A DNA stretch of 64,000 bases, taken from IMG/VR virus record IMGVR_UViG_3300044736_000016, positions 45,769 to 109,768 of that record. One strand, written 5' to 3'. Positions 19,044 through 48,066 of this stretch are shown piece after piece. The position numbers were made by a program, and so were the translations under genes. A model generated the notes under the pieces. That model saw nothing but the letters and a program-made list of their open reading frames with translations. It was not told where the DNA came from and made no database searches. This DNA is from a virus. Numbering within the stretch: the stretch's first letter is position 1; every line of letters starts with the position of its first letter.

Positions 19044-20036
19044 ATGCAGCCGAGCCCGAACAGCGTCTACGTCGACCCGCTGCTGAGCGACATGGCCGTT
19101 GCGTTCATGCAGGACGCGACATCATTCATCAGCGATCAGGTCTTCCCGACCGTCCCAGTACAGTACCAGACGGGCAAGTACGACTACTACGACCGCGGCG
19201 CGTGGTACAGCATCCGTGCCAAGCCGCGCGCTCCCGGAGAGGAATCGGCGGGCGGTGGGTACACCCTGCAGCAGAAGACCTACGCGGTCATCCCCTACGC
19301 GGTGCACTCCGACCTCGACGCGCAGACTGCGGCAAACGCCATGCCGCCCGAGGATCCGCGACGGAACAAGACCCGCTGGTGCACCATGCAGTTGCTCCTG
19401 CTCAAGGAGAAGCTCTGGGCCGACGGGTTTTTCAAGGCTGGCGTGTGGACCACCGACATGACCGGCGTGACCGGAACGTCGCCTACCTCCGTGCAGTTCA
19501 CGCAGTGGAGCAACCACACGTCCAGCACTCCGATCGAGGATGTCGAGGCTCAGGTCACGGCCATGGAGCAGTTGACGGGGTTCAGCCCGAACACCCTGGT
19601 CATCGGGCGGTCGACGTGGGCGGGGCTTAAGAACCACCCGCAGCTCGTCGATAGGATCAAGTACACGCAGCGCGGCATCATGACCGAGGATCTGCTCGCC
19701 GCGGTCCTAGGACTGGACAAGGTTCTCGTCTCACGGGCGACCATCGACACCGCTCCCGAGAGCGGCGCGTCGCCGCCCACGGGTGACGTGTACTCGTTTT
19801 TGATGGGCAAGGGTGCGCTGCTCTGCTACTCCGCACCCTCGCCGTCCACCGAGATGCCGAGCGCTGGCTACCACTTTACCTGGACCGGGTATTTGGGTGC
19901 GAGTGCGAACGGCAGCGTGGTGTACGAGATCCCCGCGCCGCTCCGCAAGTCCGTTCGCATCGAGGGCGAGCTGGCCACGTCGCCGACCATCGTGGCCCCC
20001 GACCTCGGTACCTTCTTCGCCTCTGCGGTCGCGTAA
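19044..20036 (+). CDS. Major capsid protein (HK97 fold)
   Basis: 330 aa. The start DPLLSDMAVAFMQDATSFISDQVFPTVPVQYQTGKY is the recognisable N-arm of a large family of HK97-fold capsid proteins, followed by RAPGEESAGGG, TYAVIPYAVHSDLD and an LVIGRSTWAGLK motif in the A-domain. No N-terminal delta domain is present, in line with a separate scaffold. Protease, decoration and capsid genes are contiguous. Confidence 0.85.
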   Translation: MQPSPNSVYVDPLLSDMAVAFMQDATSFISDQVFPTVPVQYQTGKYDYYDRGAWYSIRAKPRAPGEESAGGGYTLQQKTYAVIPYAVHSDLDAQTAANAMPPEDPRRNKTRWCTMQLLLLKEKLWADGFFKAGVWTTDMTGVTGTSPTSVQFTQWSNHTSSTPIEDVEAQVTAMEQLTGFSPNTLVIGRSTWAGLKNHPQLVDRIKYTQRGIMTEDLLAAVLGLDKVLVSRATIDTAPESGASPPTGDVYSFLMGKGALLCYSAPSPSTEMPSAGYHFTWTGYLGASANGSVVYEIPAPLRKSVRIEGELATSPTIVAPDLGTFFASAVA

Positions 20037-22313: not shown

Positions 22314-25271
22314 GTGGCGGCCCCAGTCCTCGTTCAGCACGTCGGCGGCACGGCGGTCAGCGGCACGTCGGCGATCTACACGGTCTCGGCCACGGGTGCT
22401 GCCGCCGGCACGGGGCTCGCCATCGTCATCGGCTGGCGCATCACCGCCGCCGCCAGCCAGACCATCACCTCGATCACGGACAACAAAGGCAACACGTGGG
22501 CGGTAGAGGACCGCGACAACGACGCGACGTCCACGCAGAAGGCCGATATCTGGTCGGTCAACCCCAGCGCCTACATCAGCGGCGTCACGACCATCACGGT
22601 CAACTTCAGTATCGCTGCCAGCTCGAACTTCGACTTCTACGAACTCTCCGGCGGCGACATGGGCGGCGCGTGGGCCGATACGGGCGGCGCCAACCACGCC
22701 AGTAGTACGGCACCCACGGTCACCTCTGGAACGCTCGCGGGTGCTACGGAATACGCCGTCGCAGGCATCGCATGGGCGTCGAGCGCCAACACCATCTCAG
22801 GTCTCACCGCCGGCTGGACGACGGAGACGCTACAGACCACGGCAGGCGCGCCGAACCAGCGACTCCAGTCCGCGCACCAGACCACGGCCGCCACCACAGC
22901 GCTGACCTACGCGGGAACGCTCTCGGCATCCACGCGCTGGGCTGCCGTCGTCTGTCCGTTCAAAGGCAGTTCTGGCTCGGCGCTTCCCGTGACCGCAACT
23001 GGGTCGTCGGCCGCATCCGGTTCGGCAGCGGCGGTCCTCGTTATGCCGGTGGCGGGAACGGGAGTGTCCGCGAGTTCCGGGGCGGCAGCGCCCAATCTGC
23101 TGATGCCTGCGGCGGCGTCTGGCGCATCCGTGAGCAGCGGGAGCGCGGCGTCAGTCCTGACCATGCCCGTCAGCGCAAGCGGGTCAGCGACTTCTGCGGG
23201 GACCGCGACACCCACGGCCACCTACGTCGTCACGGCTGCGGGCGCGTCGGCTGCGTCGGGGAGCGCGACTGCACGTCTCACGATGCCGGTGTCAGCAAGC
23301 GGCGCGTCGGTGGTGAGCGGCACGGCTGCGATCACGTCCGGCCAGCCACCGGCCCAGGTGCAGAACGTCGTACGCGTCAGCACCGTCAACAACGAGACGA
23401 CGACGGGCAGCATCAGCGTCACGTCGACCAACGCCGGGAATCTGCTGCTCATCAGCGTGGTGTTCAACTCGCTCACCTCTGGCCAGAGCGTCACCGCGGT
23501 GTTCGACAACGCGGGCCAGACGTGGAACAACGTCGTTGACATCACGTCCGGCACGATGAGTTGCGGGATCTGGGCCGCGACGAACTGCCTCGCCGGGACG
23601 ACGACCGTACAGGTCAACTACTCCGCGGGAGTCGCCGATATCGTCCGGTTTCAGGAGGTCTCGGGAGTACTGGCGAGTTCTCCGCTCGACGTGGTGGCCA
23701 GCAACAACGGGACGAGCACAACGCCGAACACCGGCACGACGACAACCACTGCGCAGGGGTCGGAGTGGGTCGCAGCGGTCTACGGGTTCACGTACACCGG
23801 CAGTATCCCATCGGAGAGCGGGTTCCCGTCAGGGTTCATCGAGGACACGGTCCAGCACACAGCGTTCGGGGCCGGGACGCAACTTGCAGAGCGTCACGGG
23901 TACGAAGCTGCGTCCGCAACCGGCACGTTCAACTTCTCCTCCACGCTCAGCACGTCGTCGCCGTGGATCGGCAGCATCGCGACATTCAAGGGCGCGGCGG
24001 CTGGCGGGCCTCTACCTGTTACAGCGTCGGGGGCGTCCATCTCGAGCGGCGCGGCATCCGTCGTACTGACCCTGCCTGCGACGACAGTCGGCGCATCGTC
24101 TGCCGCAGGTACCGCTGCTGTCGGAGTGGTCGCAAGGATCTCCGCTGCGGGTTCGTCCACGGCCGCGGGATCGGCGAACGCAGCCATCGCCATGCCAGTC
24201 ACGGGCGTCGGGTCCGCGAACGCGAGCGGTGTTGCGTCGGCAGTGCTGGTCATGCCTGCGTCCACGGTTGGCGCCTCCACGGCGAGCGGAACTGCGACAG
24301 CTGTGGCAACTCTCGCAGCAAGTACGTCTGGTGGTGCGGTTAGCGTCGGGTCCGCCATCGCGGCGATCTCCACGCCAGTCTCGGGCGTGGGCACCTCGGT
24401 AGCATCCGGGGCGGCAACGATCCGCCTGTCCATGCTGGTGTCCGGTGTCGGGGCGTCATCAGCCAGCGGCAGCGCGTCCTTGGTCGTGCTCGAGGCGGTA
24501 TCAGCGGGCGGGGCGTCTGCAACAGCAGGGTCGGCATCGGTCGTCTTGCTTATGCCTATCTCCGCGGCAGGGGCGAGCGCTGCGGCGGGGTCGGCGCTGG
24601 TGTCGTCGGGATCTATCTCTGCCGGTGGCGCGGCCGTATCGTCGGGCTCTGCAGTGGTGGCGCTGCGGCTCGTGCTGGCCGCGCCTGGAGCCTCTACGGC
24701 GGCTGGGAGCGCCACCGTCGCGATGCTCATGCCTGCGTCCGCTGTGGGGGCGTCCTCTGCTGTAGGGACGGTGTCTGCGGGCCTCGCGCTGCCGGTGGTC
24801 GTGCTCGGCTCGGCGTCCGCGGCCGGTGCGGCCAGCGTGGTCGTACTGCTGGCTGTCTCGGGGGCAGGCGCAGCGGTGTCTGGCGGCACGGCCGCGGCCG
24901 TTCTACTCCTGCCGGTGACCGGCATGGGTTCGGCGGTCGCATCTGGCACGGCCACGGCCCGCACCGTGCTGGTGGTCTCCGCTGGTGGTGCGGCGACAGC
25001 GTTCGGGGTGGCCTCGGTCGTGCTGCCGCTGCCCCTGTCGAGCGTGGGCGCCTCGCTGGCCACCGGCGCCGTCGCACTCGCCATCCTGCTGCCGCTGAGT
25101 GCCGCTGGTACGTCTCAGGCGTCCGGTTCCGCGGCCGTGCTCATCCTCATGTCGGCCAGCGGCGCGTCGGTCAGTGTAGGCTCGGCGACCGTGGTTCTCA
25201 TCCTGCGCATCCCGTATCTGGTCGTCTACGGGACGGCTAGGACACCTGTGGCGGTCGGATCAGCGTCCTAA
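22314..25271 (+). CDS. Giant repeat fibre protein with two beta-sandwich domains, 985 aa
   Basis: Start GTG 22314. Residues 1-220 form a beta-sandwich domain (SITDNKGNTWAVEDRDN ... FDFYELSGGD); residues about 344-565 form a second one of the same type (AVFDNAGQTWNNVVDI ... VRFQEVSGV). Each is followed by tandem 20-residue repeats, 6 and then 20 copies, with consensus near LPVSAxGASxASGTAxVVL. The end, TARTPVAVGSAS, resembles the tail of the second repeat protein. Likely a long adsorption fibre; no enzyme motif is visible. Confidence 0.65.
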   Translation: MAAPVLVQHVGGTAVSGTSAIYTVSATGAAAGTGLAIVIGWRITAAASQTITSITDNKGNTWAVEDRDNDATSTQKADIWSVNPSAYISGVTTITVNFSIAASSNFDFYELSGGDMGGAWADTGGANHASSTAPTVTSGTLAGATEYAVAGIAWASSANTISGLTAGWTTETLQTTAGAPNQRLQSAHQTTAATTALTYAGTLSASTRWAAVVCPFKGSSGSALPVTATGSSAASGSAAAVLVMPVAGTGVSASSGAAAPNLLMPAAASGASVSSGSAASVLTMPVSASGSATSAGTATPTATYVVTAAGASAASGSATARLTMPVSASGASVVSGTAAITSGQPPAQVQNVVRVSTVNNETTTGSISVTSTNAGNLLLISVVFNSLTSGQSVTAVFDNAGQTWNNVVDITSGTMSCGIWAATNCLAGTTTVQVNYSAGVADIVRFQEVSGVLASSPLDVVASNNGTSTTPNTGTTTTTAQGSEWVAAVYGFTYTGSIPSESGFPSGFIEDTVQHTAFGAGTQLAERHGYEAASATGTFNFSSTLSTSSPWIGSIATFKGAAAGGPLPVTASGASISSGAASVVLTLPATTVGASSAAGTAAVGVVARISAAGSSTAAGSANAAIAMPVTGVGSANASGVASAVLVMPASTVGASTASGTATAVATLAASTSGGAVSVGSAIAAISTPVSGVGTSVASGAATIRLSMLVSGVGASSASGSASLVVLEAVSAGGASATAGSASVVLLMPISAAGASAAAGSALVSSGSISAGGAAVSSGSAVVALRLVLAAPGASTAAGSATVAMLMPASAVGASSAVGTVSAGLALPVVVLGSASAAGAASVVVLLAVSGAGAAVSGGTAAAVLLLPVTGMGSAVASGTATARTVLVVSAGGAATAFGVASVVLPLPLSSVGASLATGAVALAILLPLSAAGTSQASGSAAVLILMSASGASVSVGSATVVLILRIPYLVVYGTARTPVAVGSAS
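22983..23342 (+). repeat. Six 20-residue (60-bp) repeats
   Basis: Six in-register copies of a 20-residue unit, each with two short strands around a conserved Gly in G-A/S-S and S-G-T/S-A turns. DNA identity between units is low, so the repeat is ancient or selected at protein level. It lies between the two beta-sandwich domains. Confidence 0.8.
24012..25202 (+). repeat. Twenty 20-residue repeats
   Basis: Eighteen units are exactly 20 residues; one has 19 and the last 18. Positions 1-2 are usually L/M-P, position 7 is Gly, position 13 is Gly and positions 17-20 are V-V-L-x. Composition is almost only Ala, Ser, Gly, Val, Thr and Leu with nearly no charge. Confidence 0.85.
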
Positions 25272-25288
25272 GTATCCAGCTGGCGACT
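25271..25288. promoter_or_regulatory. Dyad motif copy 4
   Basis: AGTATCCAGCTGGCGACT, the reverse-strand form of the dispersed motif, with the two half-sites abutting at CAGCTG. It starts within the TAA stop of the repeat protein and ends before the stop of the convergent methyltransferase, so it marks a convergence exactly as copies 1 and 7 do. Confidence 0.55.
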
Positions 25289-25293
25289 CGAGA

Positions 25294-26013
25294 TCAGGCT
25301 GCCTCTAGCGGGAGGACGCCTTGCGCCAGCCTGCGCGCGGTCACCTCACACCAGCGCTCCTCTAGTTCGACGCCGATCGCTCTACGCCCGAGGTTCTTGG
25401 CTGCCACCAGCGTGCTCCCGCTACCAGCAAATGGGTCTAACACAATCTCTCCGGGATCGGATAGACAAGACACGATGCGTTGCATGAGCGAGACAGGCTT
25501 GGCGCTCTCATGCTCATGGCGAGCATATGAACCGCTCTCCTCGTGGACATACCACACTGATCCGGGGGCAGAACCTAACGGGTGTCGCTTGTGGTTGCGG
25601 CTCGGCTTGCTGGCTGGTGCATACGGAACCCGAACGCGATCCACCTTGGGGGCTGCGCGGGGCGGCAGATAGTGGATCGTGAACAACTCATGGCTACGAC
25701 CGAACCGCTCGCCAGCCGTCCCCAAGGTGCCACGCGACCACACCATCTCTTGCTCTAGTTCCAGCCCCGCCGCCTCAAGCGCTGCGACTACGGGAGCGAG
25801 CGTGCGCAAGAGGCCGAAAGCCACACAGAACCCACTCGGTTTCAGGAGTGGAGCTGCCAAGGCTTCCCAAGATACAGGGTTATCCCACCGCGCTATGCCG
25901 ATGCCGTAAGGCGGGTCAGTGATTATCGCGTCTATCTCGTGCAGCGTCGGTAACACCTCGCGGCAGTCGCCGTGATAGAGCGTTACGCTTCCGTCTTGGT
26001 AGTAAGGCTGCAC
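25294..26013 (-). CDS. DNA (N6-adenine or N4-cytosine) methyltransferase
   Basis: 239 aa. DPPYGIG at residues 33-39 is the catalytic motif IV; DPFAGSGST at 193-201 is the SAM-binding motif I, in the beta-class order. The target recognition region (about 100-165) is between them. No restriction enzyme is adjacent, so it is probably an orphan enzyme that protects phage DNA or changes regulation. It is a single leftward gene inside a rightward fibre module, so it looks like an inserted accessory gene. Confidence 0.85.
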   Translation of the reverse strand: MQPYYQDGSVTLYHGDCREVLPTLHEIDAIITDPPYGIGIARWDNPVSWEALAAPLLKPSGFCVAFGLLRTLAPVVAALEAAGLELEQEMVWSRGTLGTAGERFGRSHELFTIHYLPPRAAPKVDRVRVPYAPASKPSRNHKRHPLGSAPGSVWYVHEESGSYARHEHESAKPVSLMQRIVSCLSDPGEIVLDPFAGSGSTLVAAKNLGRRAIGVELEERWCEVTARRLAQGVLPLEAA

Positions 26014-26074
26014 AATCGCAGTCTAGCCTAACCACGGCACGGGCAACCACCCGCACGCCGTGATCCTGCGCTGA

Positions 26075-26419
26075 GTGAGTCGACTCAAGCTGAACAACGT
26101 TGGCGGGACCACGGGCGCGGCGCTCGGTTCTTCGTCGTCGGGCACGTCGCAGGCGATCACTGGACTCTTCGCGGTCGCCCCTGCCTTCGCCACCATCGTC
26201 GCACCTGACTACTACGTGGTCATCTTCGAGCCGAACACGGCGAACGAGGAGATCGCGTATCTGACCGTCTACACGTCGGGCGCGCTCGACGGAACCATCA
26301 CCCGTGGGCAAGAGGGGACGGGGGCACCCGCACACACATCGGGGGTCTCATGGACACACGGACCGACCGCGCAGGACTTCGCTCCGACGTACAAGCCCGC
26401 GGCGTTTTTCCTTTCGTGA
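26075..26419 (+). CDS. Small tail-fibre-associated protein, 114 aa
   Basis: GTG start. The C-terminal part, GALDGTITRGQEGTGAPAHTSGVSWTHGPTAQDF, is a signature of short phage fibre/baseplate proteins in which a GRGQEGT-like strand is followed by HxxG and WxHGPTA. It overlaps the next gene's start. Likely a virion protein that organises fibres. Confidence 0.65.
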   Translation: MSRLKLNNVGGTTGAALGSSSSGTSQAITGLFAVAPAFATIVAPDYYVVIFEPNTANEEIAYLTVYTSGALDGTITRGQEGTGAPAHTSGVSWTHGPTAQDFAPTYKPAAFFLS

Positions 26420-27138
26420 TGGCCCTATCCCGCCTGCTTCTACTGCTCGGGCTGGTCACGCTGATCGGTGGTTGTGGTTCAGGTACGTTCGCCGCAGGGA
26501 TCGCGCCTGCGTACACGGGGCACATCGTCGCTCTCGGCGACAGCCTGACGTACGGCCACGGTAACGGCGCCAACGACCAGTGGTTCGGTCCACCACAGCC
26601 GCACTCCTACCCGTGGGACATGGAAGCCGACCTTGGTATGCCCGTGGTCAACGCCGGGATCACCGGGACAACGGCGTACTCAGTCCTGCATCAGGAGACG
26701 CTGCCCTGCTGCCCACGGCCGGCAGAATATCAGCTACCCGCCCTGCTCGCTCAGCATCCGCGCCTGATCGTGGTCGGCTTCGGCACGAACGAGGCGAACT
26801 ACCGCCACCCGATCGCGCAGACGGTCGCTGACTTCCAACTCCTGCTCTACCAGATCGCGAACGCAGGCGTGCCCATCGTTCTGTTCGGCGTCCATGTCGA
26901 CTGCACCGTCCAGCCGTGCACCCCGCCCGGTCCGGGAGAGACGGCGCAGGTGTATACGACGGCGTGGGACCAGGCGCTGACCTCGCTCGCGGCGCAGTAT
27001 CACGCTGGGTTGGTGCTCGACATCCAGCATGGGTTCACCTCGGCCGACATGACGGACTGGATTCACTGCAACGCGCAGGGCTATCAGAAGATGGCGAACC
27101 AGATCGAACCGGCCGTGCGGTCGAAGTTGGGTATCTAG
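26419..27138 (+). CDS. SGNH/GDSL hydrolase with lipoprotein-like signal
   Basis: ATG 26419 overlaps the previous stop. The signal MALSRLLLLLGLVTLIGGC ends in a lipobox-like IGGC (Cys19), so export and lipidation are likely. SGNH blocks are clear: GDSLT with Ser42, Gly80 (NAGITG), GTNE with Asn124 and DWIH with Asp213/His216. Such esterases remove acyl groups from glycans. In this setting it may act on the host cell surface or on the lysogen's own receptors. Confidence 0.75.
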   Translation: MALSRLLLLLGLVTLIGGCGSGTFAAGIAPAYTGHIVALGDSLTYGHGNGANDQWFGPPQPHSYPWDMEADLGMPVVNAGITGTTAYSVLHQETLPCCPRPAEYQLPALLAQHPRLIVVGFGTNEANYRHPIAQTVADFQLLLYQIANAGVPIVLFGVHVDCTVQPCTPPGPGETAQVYTTAWDQALTSLAAQYHAGLVLDIQHGFTSADMTDWIHCNAQGYQKMANQIEPAVRSKLGI

Positions 27139-27141
27139 TTG

Positions 27142-27333
27142 GTGATCTGGAGCGACGCCGTGCACTGGCCATGGCGTACCGGGACGAGCGTCCATCGGAC
27201 CATCTACGGCTGCCCGCCCGGATCAACTCACCGCGCTGGCGAAGTTCTGATCGGCATGATGGACACTCCAGACCTCGCCCGCGAGGCTGTCGACGCTCAT
27301 AACGAACGTCTCGCCTCGGGCAGGCTGCCGTGA
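27142..27333 (+). CDS. Small actinophage protein, 63 aa
   Basis: GTG 27142 (TTG 27139 is one codon upstream). WRTGTSVHRTIYG and LIGMMDTPDLAREAVDAHN match short proteins common near tail or lysis genes of actinophages; the second part is a helix often annotated only as hypothetical. Its stop overlaps the next GTG. Confidence 0.6.
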   Translation: MIWSDAVHWPWRTGTSVHRTIYGCPPGSTHRAGEVLIGMMDTPDLAREAVDAHNERLASGRLP

Positions 27334-30300
27334 TCACTCTCGCCGCTACCAACACAATTCAGGGTAGCGCGGGAACCACGACGGCGGTCACCTACACAAT
27401 CACCGGCATGACGCTGTCGAGCGCGCAGGCAGAGACGTACGCAGTCCTATCTCAGGGCCAGCTCGCCACATCCGCGGCAGCGATCTACACCGTGCCCGCG
27501 AGCACGTCGGCGCTCGTCAAGGAGATCCTGCTCGCCAACGTCACGGCCGCAGCCGTATCGGTCAAGCTCTACATCAACGGCACCACGGCGGCGAACCAGA
27601 TCACCTCGCTCAACATCCCTGCCAACGGCGAGGCGAAGTTCGATCACACGGGCTGGGCGGTGTACGACGGCAACGGTAGCCTGCAAGTCACGCCTGTCTA
27701 CATCACTGCGGCGGCGGGGTCGGTCCCGGAGGCGTCGGTCGCCAACCTCGGCATGGACCTGACCGTGCTGACCGCGGCCATCGCAGACAACGGCGTGGAT
27801 TCGGGCTGCGCCGTGACGTGGGTGTCAGGCCTGAACGTTGCCATCGCCACAGGCATCGTGCGCATCGGCGGTGGACGGTACAACATCGCAGCCGTCGCCT
27901 CGCAGGCGCTGAACACCGCCGACCCGAACTACGCGCGCTGGGACATGATCACCGCGAACACCTCGTCCGCCGTGGTCTACACAGCAGGCACCGCTGCGGC
28001 GTATCCGGTGGTCCCGGCCATCCCCGCGAACTCCGTCGTGCTGGCGATCATCCCCGTCTACGCTGGCAACAACCCGGCGCTGTCGGGCGCAGCCATCGTG
28101 GACAAGCGCATCATTCTGCCGACCACGAACCTGAACCTGCCGCCAGTGTTCGACCCGAGCGGTGGTTTGAAGACGTGGCGTGCCGCGGTGGCGAACAAGG
28201 AAAACAAGCCCGCGGACATCCTGTTCATCGGCGACAGCATCCACGAGGGCTACTACAGCAGCGACGATGCGCACCGGTACGCCTCGCTCGTCAGACGCAG
28301 GCTACAGAACTACTACAACCCGACGCACATTCCCGGAGGCGAGGGCTTCATACCCGGCACGCATGTGCAGGGTTCCGGCGCAGGCAACGGGTACATCGCG
28401 CTCGCGCAGCGGTGGACGGTCGTCGGACCAAGCCTACCTCCGACCGATCTGGGTTACGGGTTGGGGCGGCGGTCTGTTCCGCTCACCGCCGCAACGCACA
28501 CTGCGACCATCGGCGGACTGCTCGCGGACCGGTTCTGGATCTACTACACGGCCACCACGACGTCAGGCTGGATCGGCATCGCTATCGACGGCAAGCTGAC
28601 CACGGTGGCAACGCAGGGCGTTCTGTCCGGCACCGGCACGGGCACGTTCACGACGACGCTCGCGACAGGATGGCCGGGTGGCACGTTCACACTCACGGTG
28701 GACGACGAGGACATGACCGTCACGGCGAACGGCGCCACCATCACGATCACGGCACGAGGAGCGAACGCCACCACCGCAGTCACGCATGCCGTGGGCGCGA
28801 CTGCGCAGTGGGCTCCTGCGGGCGTGAAGCGCGCCAACACCCTCGGCGCCGCGATCAAGGGCGGTCGCATGTGGGATTCAGGCGCGCTGACCCGCGGTAT
28901 CCACTCAGTGACCGTCGTGCCGATCAACCGTGCCGGTGGCGGGTCGACCTACAACGTCAACCTCGACGGCGTCATGGTGTTCGACGGCGACGGTGGGCCG
29001 GGACCGGGCACGTTCACTGACGGCGTGCTCGTCGGCACGACCACCACAGGCGTCCAGACGCTCCCCATATCGACCATCAACGTCACATCCACGACGAACT
29101 TCCCTGCGTCCGGCCAGGTGAACATCGTGACCTCGTCGGGCGCGCAGACCGTCACCTACGCGGGCGTCACCGCCAACACGCTGACCGGATGCTCGAACGG
29201 CGTCGGCAACACCTCGGCTGGCGGGGCCGTCACATCCCAGACATTCCAGAGCGCCACGGCAGCCTTCACCGCGGCCGACGTCGGGCAGTACATCTACGCG
29301 GTCGGCATCCCCGTGCACACGACGATCACCGCCGTTGTGAGCGCGACGCAGATCACGCTGTTGCAGCCAGGGACTGCCACCAGCTCGGGAATCACCTTCG
29401 AGATCAACGGCAGATCCGCAGGAGTGCGCATGTGGGATGGCGCGCACTCGACCATGACATCTGCGGGCATGGCTGGTCCGGCGGGGGCGATCAACGGTTG
29501 GTGGGCTGACGCGCTCGACACCGTGGACCCTGACCTTGTGGTGATCGAGTTCGGCATCGTGGACTTGATTTTGTCCGTGACGGGTGCGACCTACTACGCG
29601 AACCTCACGTCGATGGTCAGCCTCATCAAGTCGAAGTGCCCCGGCAACCCGTCCATCTGCTTCTTCGTCGCGTGGCAGCCCGGAGATTACACGGCAGCGC
29701 AGTGGGGCGTGTTTACCAACGCGATGTACCTCGTCGCCCAGCAGCAGGGCTGCGCGGTGTTCGACTTCTCGCTCAGGGTCTCTGCGGCAGCGGCATCAGG
29801 TGCCGGTGCGGTGATGTTCACCGACACCATCCACCCGAACGATGCTGGTGCGCAGGACATTGCGCTCGAGTTCACCAAGTACCTCGTCGGGCACGAACTC
29901 GTGCAGCCGATCAAGAGTCCGTGGTTCGGGGACGGTTCGGACGGCGCGGTGGTGTTCGACGGCACGACGACCATCCTCGGCATGGCCCCAGCGTCGAGCG
30001 TCTACACCCTGACGCGCGATCTGTTCCTGACCAACATGACCGTGAACAACGGCGTGACGATCAAGACGGCATCGTTCCGCATCTACGGTACCGGCACCTT
30101 GATGACGCCGATACAGGCTGTCGCGTCCACGGGGATCATCGACTGTTCTGGCGGAAACGCAGCAGGACAGACTGCTGGGGCGGCAACCGCGAACCAGTCT
30201 CTGTCGGGTAGCGTCGGCGGCGGGGCTGGAGGCGCGATCGGTGGGGCGGGTGTGGCGGGTGGCACTCTCACCGCAGCGGGGACAGGACCGCTCATGGGAG

Positions 30301-30776
30301 GTGTCGGCGGGATCGGTGGTGCCTCGACGGGAGCCGCTGGTGCAGCGGGTGCAAACACCAACGCAGCGGCGCAGAACCTCCTCAACGCCCGCACGGTCCA
30401 CACGGCGACGACAGGCTGCGCCATGGGGTCGTTCGGCGCCTTCCAGAAGGTGCTGTACGTCCAGCCCGGTCAGGGCGGCGGCGGCGGCGGCGGTGGCGCG
30501 GCGGTCGGTGGTGGTGGTGGCGCTGGAGGCGGCATCGTCCTGCTCGCCTTCGCGACCATCAACTTCCTCGGACCCATCCTCGCGAACGGCGGCAACGGCG
30601 GCAACAGCACGGGTGGGGCGGGCGGCGGCGGCGGCGGCGGCGGGGCGATCTACCTCACCTGCGCCAACCTAGGACTGCTTGGCCCGGTTGCAGCAGCAGG
30701 CGGGTTCCCCGGCACGGGCACGGCCGGCGCACCGGCCTCGGGTGGCGCAGGCAGCGTCATCATCACCCGCGTGTAG
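27330..30776 (+). CDS. Tail fibre/spike with split SGNH hydrolase and Gly-rich end, 1148 aa
   Basis: GTG start overlapping the previous stop. Residues 1-280 are beta-rich attachment domains. An SGNH domain begins at about 297 (ILFIGDSIHEG) and closes with DTIHPND at about 830, with large beta insertions between (bacterial Ig-like stretches near 430-500 and 580-690). WWADALDTVDPDLVVIEFG provides the block III region, with a less usual sequence. The last 200 residues are strongly Gly-rich (polyglycine runs), typical of fibre tips that form polyglycine helices or trimer caps. Probably cleaves acyl groups of surface glycans during adsorption. Confidence 0.7.
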   Translation: MITLAATNTIQGSAGTTTAVTYTITGMTLSSAQAETYAVLSQGQLATSAAAIYTVPASTSALVKEILLANVTAAAVSVKLYINGTTAANQITSLNIPANGEAKFDHTGWAVYDGNGSLQVTPVYITAAAGSVPEASVANLGMDLTVLTAAIADNGVDSGCAVTWVSGLNVAIATGIVRIGGGRYNIAAVASQALNTADPNYARWDMITANTSSAVVYTAGTAAAYPVVPAIPANSVVLAIIPVYAGNNPALSGAAIVDKRIILPTTNLNLPPVFDPSGGLKTWRAAVANKENKPADILFIGDSIHEGYYSSDDAHRYASLVRRRLQNYYNPTHIPGGEGFIPGTHVQGSGAGNGYIALAQRWTVVGPSLPPTDLGYGLGRRSVPLTAATHTATIGGLLADRFWIYYTATTTSGWIGIAIDGKLTTVATQGVLSGTGTGTFTTTLATGWPGGTFTLTVDDEDMTVTANGATITITARGANATTAVTHAVGATAQWAPAGVKRANTLGAAIKGGRMWDSGALTRGIHSVTVVPINRAGGGSTYNVNLDGVMVFDGDGGPGPGTFTDGVLVGTTTTGVQTLPISTINVTSTTNFPASGQVNIVTSSGAQTVTYAGVTANTLTGCSNGVGNTSAGGAVTSQTFQSATAAFTAADVGQYIYAVGIPVHTTITAVVSATQITLLQPGTATSSGITFEINGRSAGVRMWDGAHSTMTSAGMAGPAGAINGWWADALDTVDPDLVVIEFGIVDLILSVTGATYYANLTSMVSLIKSKCPGNPSICFFVAWQPGDYTAAQWGVFTNAMYLVAQQQGCAVFDFSLRVSAAAASGAGAVMFTDTIHPNDAGAQDIALEFTKYLVGHELVQPIKSPWFGDGSDGAVVFDGTTTILGMAPASSVYTLTRDLFLTNMTVNNGVTIKTASFRIYGTGTLMTPIQAVASTGIIDCSGGNAAGQTAGAATANQSLSGSVGGGAGGAIGGAGVAGGTLTAAGTGPLMGGVGGIGGASTGAAGAAGANTNAAAQNLLNARTVHTATTGCAMGSFGAFQKVLYVQPGQGGGGGGGGAAVGGGGGAGGGIVLLAFATINFLGPILANGGNGGNSTGGAGGGGGGGGAIYLTCANLGLLGPVAAAGGFPGTGTAGAPASGGAGSVIITRV

Positions 30777-30779
30777 CCC

Positions 30780-33542
30780 ATGAGCTTCGGCGGGGATCGC
30801 TACGGCGTCGTCCGCTACGCGGGGCAGTCCACAACGGGTGTGGTCCTGCCAGTCACGTCGGCGGGTGCGTCCTCGAGCACGGGCACCGCCACCCTGACGC
30901 TCGTCATGCCCGTCTCGGCGATCGGTGCATCTGCATCTACTGGCACAGCGACAGCAGCGGTCACGTACGGGATCACGGCGTCCGGTTCTTCCTCGGCCAC
31001 CGGGGCGGCGACCGCGGCGCTGATCATGCCGGTTGCGGCCACCGGATCGGCTGCGAGTTCGGGCACGGGTTCGGTCGCGCAGGTTATGGCGGTCGCTGCG
31101 ACCGGCGCATCGGTGGCCTCGGGGACAGGCGCGTCGGCCCTGACCATGCTGGTCTCGGCCTCGGGAGCGAGTACGGCGGTCGGAACCGTCAGCGGCGCTC
31201 TGGTCTTGGCAACTACGGCGACGGGCGGGAGCGCTACTGCTGGCGCTGCATCCGTGGGTCTCTCGCAGCCCGTGCCGGCCGTCGGGGCAGCGGTCAGCAC
31301 TGGGGTCGGGTCAGCCGCTCTCGTCATGCCGATCGCCGGGACCGGTGGTTCGGTAGCTGGCGGTGCCGCGGCCGTTGCGCTGTCGATGGCGGTCACGTCC
31401 TCTGGCCAATCTGCCGCATCCGGTTCGGCCGCTGTGGTCGCGACGCTCGCCGTGAGCGCCGCCGGGGCGTGTACGGCTGGTGGCACGACCGTGATCACGC
31501 TGCGTCAGCCGGCCTCCGGGTCAGGGGCCGCGGTGAGTTCTGGCGCCTCTGCGGTCGTACTAGCGATGCTGGTCGGTGCAACGGGGAGTGCGGCGACCTC
31601 TGGCACATCAGCGGTCAGCCTGTCGTTGGCGGTTCTGGCTTCCGGTGCTGCTGCGGCCTCTGGCGGCGCTGTGGCGGTCCTGCTTCTCGCCGTGAGCACC
31701 GCGGGTACTGCGTCGTCGGCAGGGACGTCGACGGTGACGCTCGGCATGCCCGTCTCGACTGTGGGCGTGTCAGCCTCGGTGGGTGGTGCGGCGGTCGTAC
31801 TGCTCATGCCGGTCTCAGCGGTGGCGGCATCGACATCAACCGGCGCGGCGACCGTCAGCCTCCGCGCACCGATCACGGCTGTCGGGCTGGCCACATCAGC
31901 AGGGGGCGCCGCGGCCGTCCTGGTCATGCCAACGTCGGGAGTGGGAACCACGGTCGCGGCGGGGACGGCGACCGTGGGGCTGCTGCTGCTGATCTCCGCG
32001 TCTGGCGTGTCGGTGAGCATCGGTACGTCATCCGTCCTGCTCGTCCAGCCGATCTCCACCACGGGCTCAGCAGTGGTGTCCGGCGCGGCGGCGGTGATCC
32101 TCGTCATGCCTGCTGCTGCGCTCGGAACGTCCTCTGCGGCGGGTTCCGCGTCCCTTGCGGTGGTTGTCGTCGTGTCCACGGCGGGGTCGGCGTTGGCTGC
32201 GGGCGCGGCGAGTGTGGCTCTGCGTATCCCGGTCACCGCATCAGGGTCGGCGGTGTGTTCGGGCGTCTCGTCTGCCGTTCTGAGCCTGCCGACCATCGCT
32301 GCGGGCGGTTCTGCCGCGGGCGGAACGGCTGCGGTCATCCTGCGCGTGTCGACCACCGGTTCGGGTGCAGCGGCGGCGTCCGGTGGGGCTGTCGTCGTAC
32401 TGACCCTCGCCATCACCGCGTCAGGAACGACCGTGGCCACTGGTGGAGCGGCGGCGGTGGTCGTTCTGCCGGTGACCGCGGCCGGCGCGTCTACGTCGGC
32501 AGGGACGGGCTCTGTCCTGTCCGGCGTCCCCATCAACGCGGTCGGGACGTCGCTCGGTGCCGGGGTGGCCTCTGTGGCGCTGCGGCTGGCATCCTCTGGG
32601 GTAGGCGCATCGGTCGCCGCGGGCTCGGCTAGCGTCGTCTTGATCCTCGCCCTTGGCGCTACCGGCGTGAGCGTCGCGGCAGGGACGGCGGACGTCAACA
32701 CTGGCGCGCTCCGGGCCGCAGGGACAGCCTCGTCCTCGGGGACGGCGGTCGCCGCCCTCCTGCTGGTGGTCGCTGGCGTCGGGGCCGGGGTGTCGTCGGG
32801 ATCTGGCGCCATCGGTCTGACCATGCTGTCTGGAGCCTCTGGTGCGGCGGCCAGCTCCGGGAACGCTGCGGTGTGGCTGAGCCTTGCAGTAGTCGGTGCA
32901 GGAGCGTCGGCCTCGAGCGGCACAGCGGCGATCGTCGTACTCACGCCTCTGCGCGTGTCGGCTGCCGGGGTCGCTACATCGGCGGGATCGGCGCTGGTTG
33001 GCCTGACGCTCCCCTCGGCCGCAGTGGGTGGTTCGCTGGCGTCTGGCTTCGCTCTGGCAGGCATCCCTGCGCTGGTGGCAGGAGTCGGCGCATCGACGAT
33101 TGCTGGCGCTGCGACGGTCGTGGTGTGGCTCGGCATCGGCTCTGCGGGGGCGTCAGCAGGCAGCGGTGCTGCGTCGGTCCGTCTGTCTGTGGCGATCGTC
33201 GGTGTGGGTGCGGCAGTCTCCGCTGGAGGCGCGACAGTCGAACTCGGTGGTGGCCTGGTCGGCGTCGGCATCGCTATCAGCATCGGGTCCGCGACGCTAG
33301 TCCTCGTCTACCCCGTCATCCGGCACCTCGCCATGGGGATCAGCCTCACACCCGTCGCTACGGGGGCTGGGGTCAGCGGAGGAGCGCGTGGCGGGATGGC
33401 TGCTGCGGGGTCGGTCGGGATGGCGCGAAGCGGTGATGTTCGGGGCCTGACGGTCAGCGCTGGCGTTACGGGCTCGGCTCGAGGCGGTGACGCGGCAGGA
33501 GTGGTCAAGACGCCCGCCGTGGCAGGCTCGGTGCTGCCATGA
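30780..33542 (+). CDS. Giant 20-residue-repeat protein, 920 aa
   Basis: After only 22 N-terminal residues (MSFGGDRYGVVRYAGQ...) the protein is 41 tandem 20-residue repeats, the first 31 perfectly in register, then about 75 Gly/Ala/Arg-rich residues containing SLTPVATG, like the end of the 985-aa protein. Regular two-strand units of constant length predict a very long beta-solenoid or fibrous rod. It carries almost no charge, no cysteines beyond two, and no enzyme motif. Its neighbours are fibre and connector genes. I know no named family for it. Confidence 0.65.
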   Translation: MSFGGDRYGVVRYAGQSTTGVVLPVTSAGASSSTGTATLTLVMPVSAIGASASTGTATAAVTYGITASGSSSATGAATAALIMPVAATGSAASSGTGSVAQVMAVAATGASVASGTGASALTMLVSASGASTAVGTVSGALVLATTATGGSATAGAASVGLSQPVPAVGAAVSTGVGSAALVMPIAGTGGSVAGGAAAVALSMAVTSSGQSAASGSAAVVATLAVSAAGACTAGGTTVITLRQPASGSGAAVSSGASAVVLAMLVGATGSAATSGTSAVSLSLAVLASGAAAASGGAVAVLLLAVSTAGTASSAGTSTVTLGMPVSTVGVSASVGGAAVVLLMPVSAVAASTSTGAATVSLRAPITAVGLATSAGGAAAVLVMPTSGVGTTVAAGTATVGLLLLISASGVSVSIGTSSVLLVQPISTTGSAVVSGAAAVILVMPAAALGTSSAAGSASLAVVVVVSTAGSALAAGAASVALRIPVTASGSAVCSGVSSAVLSLPTIAAGGSAAGGTAAVILRVSTTGSGAAAASGGAVVVLTLAITASGTTVATGGAAAVVVLPVTAAGASTSAGTGSVLSGVPINAVGTSLGAGVASVALRLASSGVGASVAAGSASVVLILALGATGVSVAAGTADVNTGALRAAGTASSSGTAVAALLLVVAGVGAGVSSGSGAIGLTMLSGASGAAASSGNAAVWLSLAVVGAGASASSGTAAIVVLTPLRVSAAGVATSAGSALVGLTLPSAAVGGSLASGFALAGIPALVAGVGASTIAGAATVVVWLGIGSAGASAGSGAASVRLSVAIVGVGAAVSAGGATVELGGGLVGVGIAISIGSATLVLVYPVIRHLAMGISLTPVATGAGVSGGARGGMAAAGSVGMARSGDVRGLTVSAGVTGSARGGDAAGVVKTPAVAGSVLP
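30846..33308 (+). repeat. Forty-one 20-residue repeats
   Basis: Consensus close to MPVSAxGASxSSGTAxVxLx. Units 1-31 are each exactly 20 residues; later units vary from 18 to 22. Together with the 26 units of the upstream protein this makes 67 copies. Confidence 0.85.
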
Positions 33543-33569: not shown

Positions 33570-34451
33570 GTGTCGTTTTTGCTCGGCAAGGCCGCAGTTT
33601 TGCAGAGCGTTTTCAAAGACCTCGTAACCGGCCTGCCCAACGATCCTCCCGGCGTCGCCTTCTCTCTGGTCGATCCGCTTGGCGTGGTCACTGCCGCGAC
33701 GTGGGTCGGACCTGCGCCGGGTACGTTCGCTGGTGCATCTGGCCTCTCACGACTGTCGGCCGGTGCGTTCCAGTTCGTCACCATCCCCAGTTACGCGGGA
33801 TCCCCGTGGCGATGGTCGTTCCTCTCCACCGGAACCGCAACGCCCACAGAGTACGCGGCGTCGTTCTCGGTCATCAGCACCGCCTCATACCCCTACCCGT
33901 ACGGCTACTGCGACTTCGCCGACGTGCGCAACCGGATTGTCGGTGGAACATGGGACGAGACCGTCGCGGACAGTTCGATCATCCAGACACAGGTAGCGGC
34001 GTTCATCGAGGAGAGCACCGCCGAGATCGACATGTCGCTGGCCAAGCGGGGATACTCGGTCCCGCTCGTCCCCCAAGTCAACATGCAGATCAGCGCGACC
34101 GTCTGGAACCATCTGCGTGGGATCTGCGGCATGCTTGCTGCTGGTAGGGTGGAGCTCGCCCGCCACGGGTCGGGTGAAGCCGAGGTGGACAACGTCGGCA
34201 AGTCGCTCATCGCCATCGCTCGTGCGCAGTTGCAACGTATCGAGACCGGCGCCGACAACCTGACCATCTTCGGCGTAGCCGGACTGTCCGAGCCGCAGGT
34301 GGATTCGGGCGCAGGGATGTCCGAGGGGACGCTGGTCGGACTGAACGGCAACGCCTACCCGCCGCTGTTCACGATCAGCGGCGATGTGCCCACGGTCGGC
34401 GTCCCCATCCCGGGCGGTGGGATTCCGTCAGGTGGCGTACAGCCGTGGTGA
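33570..34451 (+). CDS. Head-tail connector protein (DUF1320/gp36-like)
   Basis: GTG start. Residues 1-105 look like an immunoglobulin-like beta domain. From about 110, YCDFADVRNRI ... QTQVAAFIEESTAEIDMSLAKRGYSVPL followed by a helical bundle is the usual head-tail adaptor of the DUF1320 group. A Gly/Pro-rich tail ends it. The fused N-terminal beta domain is unusual. Confidence 0.7.
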   Translation: MSFLLGKAAVLQSVFKDLVTGLPNDPPGVAFSLVDPLGVVTAATWVGPAPGTFAGASGLSRLSAGAFQFVTIPSYAGSPWRWSFLSTGTATPTEYAASFSVISTASYPYPYGYCDFADVRNRIVGGTWDETVADSSIIQTQVAAFIEESTAEIDMSLAKRGYSVPLVPQVNMQISATVWNHLRGICGMLAAGRVELARHGSGEAEVDNVGKSLIAIARAQLQRIETGADNLTIFGVAGLSEPQVDSGAGMSEGTLVGLNGNAYPPLFTISGDVPTVGVPIPGGGIPSGGVQPW

Positions 34452-46454: not shown

Positions 46455-46855
46455 TGAACAAGTCGCCACTGCGGGGTATGCCGTTCCTGCTCAAGGTCTA
46501 TTACCACAAGATAGAACTGCTCTCGCTTTTGTTCACCATTCTGCTCGTCGTCGTCTTTTACATCTTGGCTCAGGAGGTGGTCGAGACGAGGCGGCAGGCT
46601 GGGGTCATCGCCGCCCAAGGTGTGCAGCAGAGGAAGGTGATGGAAGATGAGATCAGGTTCAACCGGTTCCTCATCGACAGAGAGACGGCGCGGACGGGGT
46701 CTGGCGGGCGGCAGGGACTCATCGACCAAGCCAACCTAGACAGGGCAGAGCTACGGCGGTTAGAGGCCGCGCTACGGGCCGCTGGGGTACGGCTGCCGCC
46801 CTCTGACGTGCTCGAGGGGCATCCTGCCAACCCGCCCCAACATGCACCGCCATGA
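46451..46855 (+). CDS. N-anchored membrane protein, 134 aa
   Basis: GTG 46451 or ATG 46454, overlapping the previous stop. One membrane span near residues 23-42 (LLSLLFTILLVVVFYILA) and then a charged coiled helix (VVETRRQAGVIAAQGVQQRK), ending Pro-rich. Its topology is opposite to that of its neighbours, which suggests a complex built in the membrane. Confidence 0.6.
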   Translation: MMNKSPLRGMPFLLKVYYHKIELLSLLFTILLVVVFYILAQEVVETRRQAGVIAAQGVQQRKVMEDEIRFNRFLIDRETARTGSGGRQGLIDQANLDRAELRRLEAALRAAGVRLPPSDVLEGHPANPPQHAPP

Positions 46856-48066
46856 GTGCCCAAATCGTCGCTGACACTGACGGGCGCGTGATCTCGTGGG
46901 ACGCTGAGGCAGCGCGGCTCTTGGGGTATCCGGCGGACGAGGTTGTCGGGCGTCTGCTCGGAGAGACGATCGTCCCCCCACAGCATCGTGACCAGTACGA
47001 CCGTGGGCTGGATGACTTCCGAAAGACGGGCGCAGTGCGTTCGCTCGGGATGCGCTTGCAGGTTGATGCACTGCGCAAGGACGGCACCGTGATCCCGATC
47101 GACTTGCGGCTGACGAAACTCTCGGCCGATCCGCCAACTCTGCTCGTGCTCATCGACCCGCGAGCACCAGCCGACCAACCCGACCCATACACCGGCACCG
47201 AGCACCGTGACTACGCAGCAGACACCGAGGCAGCCCGTGCTGGTCGTGCTGAGGCGCTGGCTGGTGGTGTGACAGAGGTTGCGGCAGAGGTCGAGGCAGA
47301 GCGGGTGCAGCGCGCCAAGGGGCTCGCCGCTCAGTCTGAGCACAACGTTGCGGTGGCCGCCGCAGACGTGGAAGCGGAGCGACTGAGGATTGCTGCAAGT
47401 CTGGCCACGCAGTCCGCCCTGGGCGCTGCCTCGGCTGCTTCGATCTTGGAGGAGGAGCGCATCAAACGTGCAGTCGCCCTGGCTCTCGAATCCATCCGCG
47501 AGACGTCTGCCACGGCCGCCGGAGTTGAGGCAGAGCGGATCCACCGCGCCGAGACCTTGGCGGATCGTTCGGCACGGGGCGTGTCATCGGCAGCAGCAGA
47601 CGTCGAGGAGGGCCGGGTAGAACGAGCCACGAAGCTCGCCGTCGAGGTGGAGCGTGCGAAGCTGAAAGCGGAGGGCGTGGCTGTGGCGGTGAACGGACTT
47701 ACCACAGAGGTAACCGAACTACGAGGCGCCGCCGTGCGGATGGAAACGGCAGTACGGGAAATGAGCAGCCATCTTTCCGAGGTACTGAAGGCGACCGAAG
47801 CGCTGCACACCGGGTACGGCGTTGACGAGAGCACCATGACGGACCGCTCGCGATTTCCATCCCTGCTGACATGGTGGGGGCGGATGACGACGGAGATCGT
47901 CCCAGGTACAGGCAAGACGCGGCTGGCGATATTCGATGAGGTGATCGCCCAGCGCGCGAGCCGTATGCACGTCTCTACAAGCGGGCTCAAGGTGTTCGCC
48001 ATCCTCACCCCATTCCTGTGCATCATCATCGGCGCAATTCTCACGTTTCTGCTCACTCGAAAATGA
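46852..48066 (+). CDS. PAS-domain, coiled-coil, tail-anchored protein, 404 aa
   Basis: ATG 46852 overlaps the previous stop. Residues 4-104 are a PAS domain (IVADTDGRVISWDAEAARLLGY; EVVGRLLGETIVPPQHR; RKDGTVIPIDLRLTKL). Residues about 147-275 are five repeats of a 26-residue helical unit (VEAERxxRAxxLAxxS...). One membrane span ends the protein (about 380-402). No kinase, GGDEF or HTH domain follows. It looks like a sensor with its signalling part replaced by a rod and a membrane anchor. A phage-coded protein of this form is unusual. Confidence 0.7.
   Translation: MSAQIVADTDGRVISWDAEAARLLGYPADEVVGRLLGETIVPPQHRDQYDRGLDDFRKTGAVRSLGMRLQVDALRKDGTVIPIDLRLTKLSADPPTLLVLIDPRAPADQPDPYTGTEHRDYAADTEAARAGRAEALAGGVTEVAAEVEAERVQRAKGLAAQSEHNVAVAAADVEAERLRIAASLATQSALGAASAASILEEERIKRAVALALESIRETSATAAGVEAERIHRAETLADRSARGVSSAAADVEEGRVERATKLAVEVERAKLKAEGVAVAVNGLTTEVTELRGAAVRMETAVREMSSHLSEVLKATEALHTGYGVDESTMTDRSRFPSLLTWWGRMTTEIVPGTGKTRLAIFDEVIAQRASRMHVSTSGLKVFAILTPFLCIIIGAILTFLLTRK
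47290..47670 (+). repeat. Five 26-residue helical repeats
   Basis: Units begin at residues 147, 173, 199, 225 and 251 with V/L-E-A/E-E/G-R; the first four are exactly 26 residues. The strict period points to a continuous rod. Confidence 0.75.

Follow-up and report, generated by a model that had tools for sequence, protein, structure and literature searches.

A 20-residue repeat in two large phage proteins: a putative β-solenoid stalk of virion adhesion fibres

Fibre stalks of phages and β-solenoids with 20-residue coils are both known already, the latter for instance from the DUF2807 domain (PF10988; structures 3pet and 3jx8), a right-handed β-solenoid with ~20 residues per coil, in which the GxG motif of 3pet returns every 18-21 residues. 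Among phage proteins, the closest counterparts of those studied here are ValentiniPuff gp77, Leaf gp66 and vB_MoxS-R1 gp68, which are annotated as GDPD or as minor tail protein; the last of them has been published as an auxiliary metabolic gene for phosphorus acquisition (PMC9030533). Here we analyze two large proteins, A and B, encoded in a 64,000-nucleotide stretch of viral DNA (the window), which comprises bases 45,769-109,768 of the IMG/VR virus record IMGVR_UViG_3300044736_000016 (109,768 bases). Both contain long arrays of 20-residue repeats, and what is new in them is a class of repeats without a model in the libraries searched. In our view the repeats probably form a β-solenoid that serves as the stalk of virion adhesion fibres; Pfam, PHROGs and NCBIfam have no model for this kind of stalk.

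The three proteins from named phages resemble A in that the β-domain is located N-terminally and the array of G(x5)G repeats C-terminally, but they differ from the window proteins by the presence of a GDPD enzyme domain, and their repeats keep Gly where those in the window have Val or Leu. The coil of DUF2807 is similar in length to the unit we propose for the window; however, DUF2807 is a domain of bacterial lipoproteins and adhesins with few coils, unlike the long arrays of A and B. The β-flower (PF21786) also has ~20 residues per unit, as in the window, but its units are hairpins that form closed rings of four to six, and the window proteins do not match it. Finally, the curli subunit CsgA shares with our model a flat solenoid in which each repeat contributes two strands and two turns, but its repeats comprise ~22-23 residues with Gln/Asn ladders, it forms amyloid, and it exhibits no sequence likeness to the window proteins.

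Architecture, period and history of the repeats

An earlier note on this DNA, made from the sequence alone, had described both open reading frames (ORFs) as composed of 20-residue units, and their coordinates and lengths are borne out: protein A is encoded at 22,314..25,271 (+) and comprises 985 amino acids (aa), protein B at 30,780..33,542 (+) and comprises 920 aa. Protein A, however, consists of repeats only in part. It is a mosaic of an N-terminal all-β domain (residues 1-220; 22,314..22,973, +), a first repeat block of six exact units (residues 223-342; 22,980..23,339, +), a second copy of the all-β domain (residues 345-560; 23,346..23,993, +), a second block of ~20 units (residues 566-962; 24,009..25,199, +) and a short end. 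The two β-domains are divergent copies, 30% identical to each other. Residues 1-220 are related to the IMG/VR protein L007 (36%), and their layout resembles the N-termini of L016, also from IMG/VR, and of ValentiniPuff gp77; the AlphaFold2 (AF2) model of this domain is all-β, with a predicted local distance difference test score (pLDDT) of 60.5, and a fold search with it returned no significant match.

Protein B has a short N-terminus, ~41 units and a Gly/Ala-rich C-terminus of 65-75 residues. Its first 31 consecutive units (residues 22-641; 30,843..32,702, +) are each exactly 20 residues long, as had been claimed, and are followed by ~10 slightly irregular ones (residues 642-842; 32,703..33,305, +) and a C-terminal tail with an LTPVATG motif (33,306..33,539, +). 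The TPVAxG end ascribed to both proteins is indeed the end of A, but B runs ~65 residues beyond the motif. Charged residues, including His, are nearly absent, as noted before (22/920 in B and 48/985 in A, where most of them belong to the N-terminal domains).

The identity of residues at lags 20, 40 and 60 amounts to 0.35, 0.345 and 0.34 in B, against 0.15 expected (z ~16 in composition shuffles), and to 0.28, 0.25 and 0.24 in A (z ~10-13), and no other lag in either protein rises above z ~4. A matrix derived from the 31 exact units of B detected 39 units in B, 35 of which exceed the 95% limit of shuffled proteins, and 25 in A, of which 22 do so. Shorter units of 18-19 residues are located in the gaps (A ~766-784 and ~925-942; B 642-660), and once these and the last unit of B are added, the earlier counts of 26 units in A and 41 in B are matched. 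The skeleton [AG]xG(x5)GxA at +20 makes 17 in-register successions in A and 36 in B, versus maxima of 3 and 4 in shuffles. In the units of B all conserved columns are even (L/M2, V/I4, A6, G8, S/A10, A/S12, G14, A16, V18 and L20), with G8 present in 30/31 and G14 in 31/31 exact units, while the odd columns are variable, which is a signature of strands that turn alternate residues towards a core. The pattern of the unit is nearly symmetrical, with position 11 as the centre.

The history of the repeats was studied by comparison with one related contig, IMGVR_UViG_3300044734_000006, whose major capsid protein (MCP) is 99.7-100% identical to that of the window. Its B is 80% identical and of the same length, while its A (83% in the best segment) is shorter by exactly 20 residues, i.e. 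one unit, which suggests that arrays change in length by entire units, lost or gained. The ratio of nonsynonymous to synonymous substitution rates (dN/dS; NG86, this one sequence pair) is 0.435 for B residues 22-641, 0.49 for B 642-842 and 0.46 for A 566-962, 0.26 for the first repeat block of A and 0.30 for the C-terminal tail of B, 0.10 and 0.11 for the β-domains of A (residues 1-220 and 345-560, respectively), 0.06-0.07 for the SGNH genes located between A and B, and 0.04 for the MCP. Across the 31 exact units of B, Gly8 and Gly14 show zero changes between the relatives. Within A or B, the same amino acid in different units is encoded by the same codon with a frequency of 0.330, versus 0.331 expected from codon usage, and the likeness of units does not decay with distance (0.378 for adjacent and 0.370 for distant ones). 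Taken together, the randomized codons, the absence of decay, dN/dS of 0.44-0.49 and the fixed Gly8 and Gly14 indicate selection on the pattern with relaxed identity: old units in which the pattern is constrained while the details may vary, as would be expected for a scaffold. Recent tandem expansion is ruled out by the codon randomization between units, and exchange for a divergent allele is unlikely, as dS of the repeats (0.23-0.44) overlaps with that of the flanking genes (0.21-0.60).

Relatives of the repeats in other phages

No model in Pfam, PHROGs or NCBIfam matches the repeats of A or B, and no description of the class was found in the literature searched, subscription papers and preprints excluded. 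A tblastn search with B, the N-terminus of A and the IMG/VR proteins L014, L016 and L008 against 50,697 phage records gave no match, with the repeats masked by the low-complexity filter; yet a short scan of IMG/VR at the DNA level for the skeleton of three units ([AG]xG(x5)GxA at period 20) yielded at least 120 stretches, about 100 of which are genuine arrays. Among the matches listed, a period of 10, 20, 40 or 60 is exhibited (z > 6) by 102 of the 121 reading frames tested, although some of these 102 are simple tandem or Gly-rich repeats, and outside the 60 residues searched G(x5)G stands in register at the next three units in 56%, 47% and 33% of the proteins, as compared with 2-4% off register. 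A pattern scan of genome contigs gave four matches, which were judged from their translations to be due to chance.

Two profiles were used in further searches, A3, made only of the window repeats in non-overlapping windows, and A4, made of 57 sequences from the IMG/VR scan, among which A, ValentiniPuff, Leaf and MoxS-R1 are not included. The 57-sequence profile matches A (E=8e-13) as well as ValentiniPuff gp77, Leaf gp66 and MoxS-R1 gp68 (E from 1e-13 to 1e-17), while it matches none of Magritte, Slicko01, L008 and L014; A3 matches neither ValentiniPuff nor Leaf. The earlier statement on the absence of a named phage family with this repeat does not hold, as numerous IMG/VR contigs and three phages in GenBank (ValentiniPuff, Leaf and vB_MoxS-R1) carry it. 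In 397 genomes, a sample of one actinobacterial phylum, A3 found nothing and A4 a single match, which is a false positive, an exact 60-nucleotide tandem repeat in a shadow frame; as this repeat reached E=1.6e-13, E-values on such low-complexity sequences have to be treated with care.

The repeats occur in several contexts. ValentiniPuff gp77, Leaf gp66 and vB_MoxS-R1 gp68 combine a related N-terminal β-domain, a GDPD domain and 20-residue repeats, and the same arrangement is seen in Magritte gp27 at a period of 42 residues (2 x 21). Of the IMG/VR proteins, L016 has the N-terminal domain and the repeats with no enzyme domain, L014 has different N-terminal domains, and in L007 and L008 the N-terminal domain is accompanied by other low-complexity repeats, with a period of ~42 in L008. 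A β-domain followed by a repeat array in one chain is found in A, ValentiniPuff, Leaf, MoxS-R1 and L016, but not in B. As a separate observation, the N-terminal β-domain and 20-residue repeats of vB_MoxS-R1 gp68 (L024, 3501-5375) look more like parts of a virion fibre, and doubt is cast on the metabolic reading of repeat-bearing GDPD genes such as that made for this phage.

A case comparable to these arrays has been reported for phage LSH1, in which gp34-36 constitute an extra virion module with an adhesin/depolymerase, low-confidence "beta helix" spacers and a GP4-fibril-like neighbour; the authors left the spacers unexplained and suggested a repetitive motif as a possible reason (PMC13243795). 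A 1843-aa adhesin-like protein of Slicko01 (L033, 33570-39101) exhibits lag-20 periodicity (z=10.4) and, as identified from sequence, carries two copies of the domain reported for the LSH1 gp34 homolog (cf. PMC13243795). Its repeats have the same period as those of the window, but are rich in Asp, Asn, Phe and Ile, lack G(x5)G and are matched neither by A3 nor by the 57-sequence profile. By analogy, a 20-residue period would fit the suggestion of a repetitive motif, and the repeat class may account for the "hallucinated" spacers beside adhesin domains in LSH1 and its relatives.

On a broader scale, we see about an even chance that the repeats represent a widespread module of phage fibre stalks, a degenerate β-solenoid whose coil is fixed at 20 residues and built on a G(x5)G skeleton, which serves as an interchangeable shaft for the enzymes and binding domains of many unrelated phages, changes its length by gain and loss of whole units, and has stayed undescribed because low-complexity filters and arrays of diverse length hide it. 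Naming this class would allow many phage proteins now called "hypothetical", "phosphodiesterase" or "minor tail" to be read as fibres.

Predicted fold and alternative readings

In the model we propose, one unit would make one coil, in which two short strands (residues ~6-12 and ~15-21) alternate with tight turns (Gly13-14 and residues 2-5); the even positions would point towards a thin core, lined by small A/G/S residues on one strand and by V/L on the other, and the odd ones towards the solvent. An AF2 model of six units, computed from 16 non-overlapping repeat rows, shows strands at these positions in each of the six units, so the structure prediction called for in the earlier note did return a regular two-strand unit, though with a pLDDT of only 60.6 and a predicted template modelling score (pTM) of 0.59. 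Foldseek returned a weak PDB list composed nearly entirely of β-solenoids (CsgA at the top, its match not significant, bactofilin, ice-binding proteins, HpmA, 3lyc and 3pet), and against BFVD a weak list including the ValentiniPuff "GDPD" protein, which led to the relatives from cultured phages, and proteins of uncultured phages; no match in either list passes E=0.001. The Pfam search for DUF2807 with A and B gave no match; however, the relative L109, a phage protein with a period of 20, matches it above the cut-off (E=1.9e-8), vB_MoxS-R1 gp68 matches it weakly (E=0.006), and the repeats of gp68 match 3pet (E=0.004). This sequence linkage of the relatives to DUF2807 is better support for a 20-residue coil than AF2. 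A weak profile match in the PDB to the WD40 protein PkwA (E=5e-5) was attributed to composition (A/S/G/V-rich), as it lacks the WD motif.

Several results weigh against a solenoid. The confidence of the AF2 model is low, and AF2 is known to produce confident but unrealistic β-solenoids for perfect repeats (PMC11795689), so that the model is a lead rather than a proof, and the repeat itself a test case for this bias. No Foldseek match in the PDB was obtained at E <= 0.001, hhalign of the window repeat profile against 3pet gave a probability of 0.03, i.e. no match, A4 matched neither 3pet nor the reversed sequence, and the column pairs that should meet in the core showed no covariation of side-chain size. 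The solenoid put forward earlier is thus favoured by the even/odd pattern, the two-strand unit and the weak Foldseek solenoids, while the confidence remains low and the bias of AF2 speaks against it. The rise of a solenoid is ~0.48 nm per coil. At this value the repeats of B would span ~20 nm and those of A ~12 nm, and as a solenoid the 41 coils would not make the "very long rod" that had been envisaged.

Phage fibres are usually trimeric, and the repeats might instead form an intertwined trimer of the T4 gp5 needle or triple β-spiral type rather than a single-chain solenoid; the weak PDB matches of the 57-sequence profile are mostly constructs of the gp5 C-terminal needle (E ~0.02). These values are not significant, though, the gp5 repeat has 8 residues rather than 20, and the monomer model already shows a regular two-strand unit, so we consider this reading unlikely. 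Alternatively, each unit could be an antiparallel β-hairpin in rings or arrays resembling the β-flower fold (PF21784-PF21786), for which the two-residue Gly turn would be suitable, as would the size of the six-fold β-flower (~125 residues, i.e. ~21 per hairpin; PMC10584680), and Bflower_3 is matched, if weakly, by four of the 57 relatives (best E=6.4e-6). On the other hand, neither A nor B matches PF21784-PF21786 in Pfam, the match of L059 is below the Pfam cut-off (21.9 of 34 bits), 31 unbroken units are ill-suited to closed rings of six, and Foldseek of the repeat model returns solenoids, which makes the hairpin distinctly unlikely. L059 is in itself a period-20 phage protein that touches PF21786. 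A linker of low complexity and for the most part disordered, with the solenoid as an artefact of AF2, would agree with the repeats' Ala/Ser/Gly/Thr/Val-rich composition, the low pLDDT, the documented bias of AF2 (PMC11795689) and the hallucination raised by the LSH1 authors for a comparable spacer (PMC13243795); yet disorder would not keep a register of 20 residues over 31 units, and Gly8, Gly14 and the hydrophobic Leu20 are retained despite randomized codons, with dN/dS < 0.5, so that this explanation is highly improbable.

Two further readings concern function and coding strand. The large repetitive face of the array, the ice-binding and adhesin proteins among the weak Foldseek solenoid matches and the name "putative auto-transporter adhesin" of DUF2807 would suit an adhesive or carbohydrate-binding surface rather than a passive stalk, but side chains with a charge, an aromatic ring or an amide group are very rare on the repeats and no diversifying selection is seen (dN/dS < 1), and we find this very doubtful. 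As for the strand, an antisense ORF over the repeats of B (31,505-33,283, -, 592 aa) is open and periodic as well, because the third codon positions coincide, and it could in principle be the true gene with the + frame as its shadow. Its unit-to-unit identity (0.319, z 35.8) and its conservation between relatives (0.785) are close to those of the + frame (0.376, z 38.7, and 0.800), but the + frame is the higher in both tests, belongs to a series of genes that all lie on the + strand, the nearest of which ends 4 nucleotides before it, and is fused in A and in other phages to folded homologous domains, which leaves the antisense gene with hardly any credibility. A second antisense ORF over the repeats of A (23,894-25,084, -, 396 aa) is likewise periodic; such long antisense ORFs are a consequence of GC-rich third positions and are easily misannotated as genes.

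Gene neighbourhood and proposed role

Proteins A and B are encoded within a cluster of structural genes, between capsid and adaptor genes. The MCP is encoded upstream (19,044..20,036, +; phrog_1005, E=8e-73), its closest relative in the phage collection being that of ValentiniPuff (38%). Protein A is preceded by a homolog of Gp80, the fibre I protein of Ralstonia phage GP4 (21,477..22,064, +; PF23140, E=1.6e-8, above the curated cut-off), a candidate adaptor fibril in view of the role reported for the GP4 fibre protein (PMC13243795). Between A and B there are a short fibre-like protein (26,075..26,419, +; phrog_38058 tail fiber, E=1.2e-8), an SGNH/GDSL hydrolase (26,350..27,138, +; PF13472, E=2.2e-20) and an 1148-aa tail protein with an SGNH/GDSL domain and a Gly-rich end (27,330..30,776, +; PF13472, E=1e-16; phrog_15881 tail, E=1.5e-21), whose closest named matches are esterases or tail proteins of Arthrobacter, Gordonia and Rhodococcus phages. 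Directly after B follows a head-tail adaptor-like protein (33,570..34,451, +; PF07030, E=4e-4, below the curated cut-off; phrog_195 connector, E=0.0012).

In Leaf, Magritte and L008, genes for comparable proteins are flanked by capsid genes on one side and by tail or adaptor genes on the other, while ValentiniPuff has no such cassette between the MCP and tail genes and encodes its repeat protein after the lysin gene. A role in a fibre is suggested by the Gp80-like gene before A, by the SGNH tail proteins between A and B, by the fusion of β-domain, GDPD and repeats in named phages, and by the location of the Leaf and Magritte genes between capsid and tail. We therefore consider A and B to be probable virion adhesion-fibre proteins; the phage would be of the siphovirus type, with an actinobacterium as its likely host. 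The stalk would keep the folded β-domains at a distance from the virion, to which the Gp80-like protein could be the link, the SGNH hydrolases might be held away from it via partner proteins of the same cassette, and stalk length would change by one or more complete units at a time, so that the repeat would be a natural rod of adjustable length. A role in adsorption is plausible from the Gp80-like gene, the two SGNH genes and the occurrence of this architecture with GDPD or apiosidase in other phages.

Some minor features of the window may be added. A DNA N4/N6 methylase is encoded between A and the short fibre-like protein on the opposite strand (25,294-26,013, -; PF01555, E=6.5e-35), and this region matches the related contig poorly (~0.49 identity), which suggests a mobile insertion. 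The first ~100 residues of the adaptor-like protein resemble an extra β-domain placed before the Gp36-like part. Further downstream, an open frame of 419 codons (46,807-48,063, +) encodes a charged, Ala-rich sequence with lag-26 periodicity (z=8.1).

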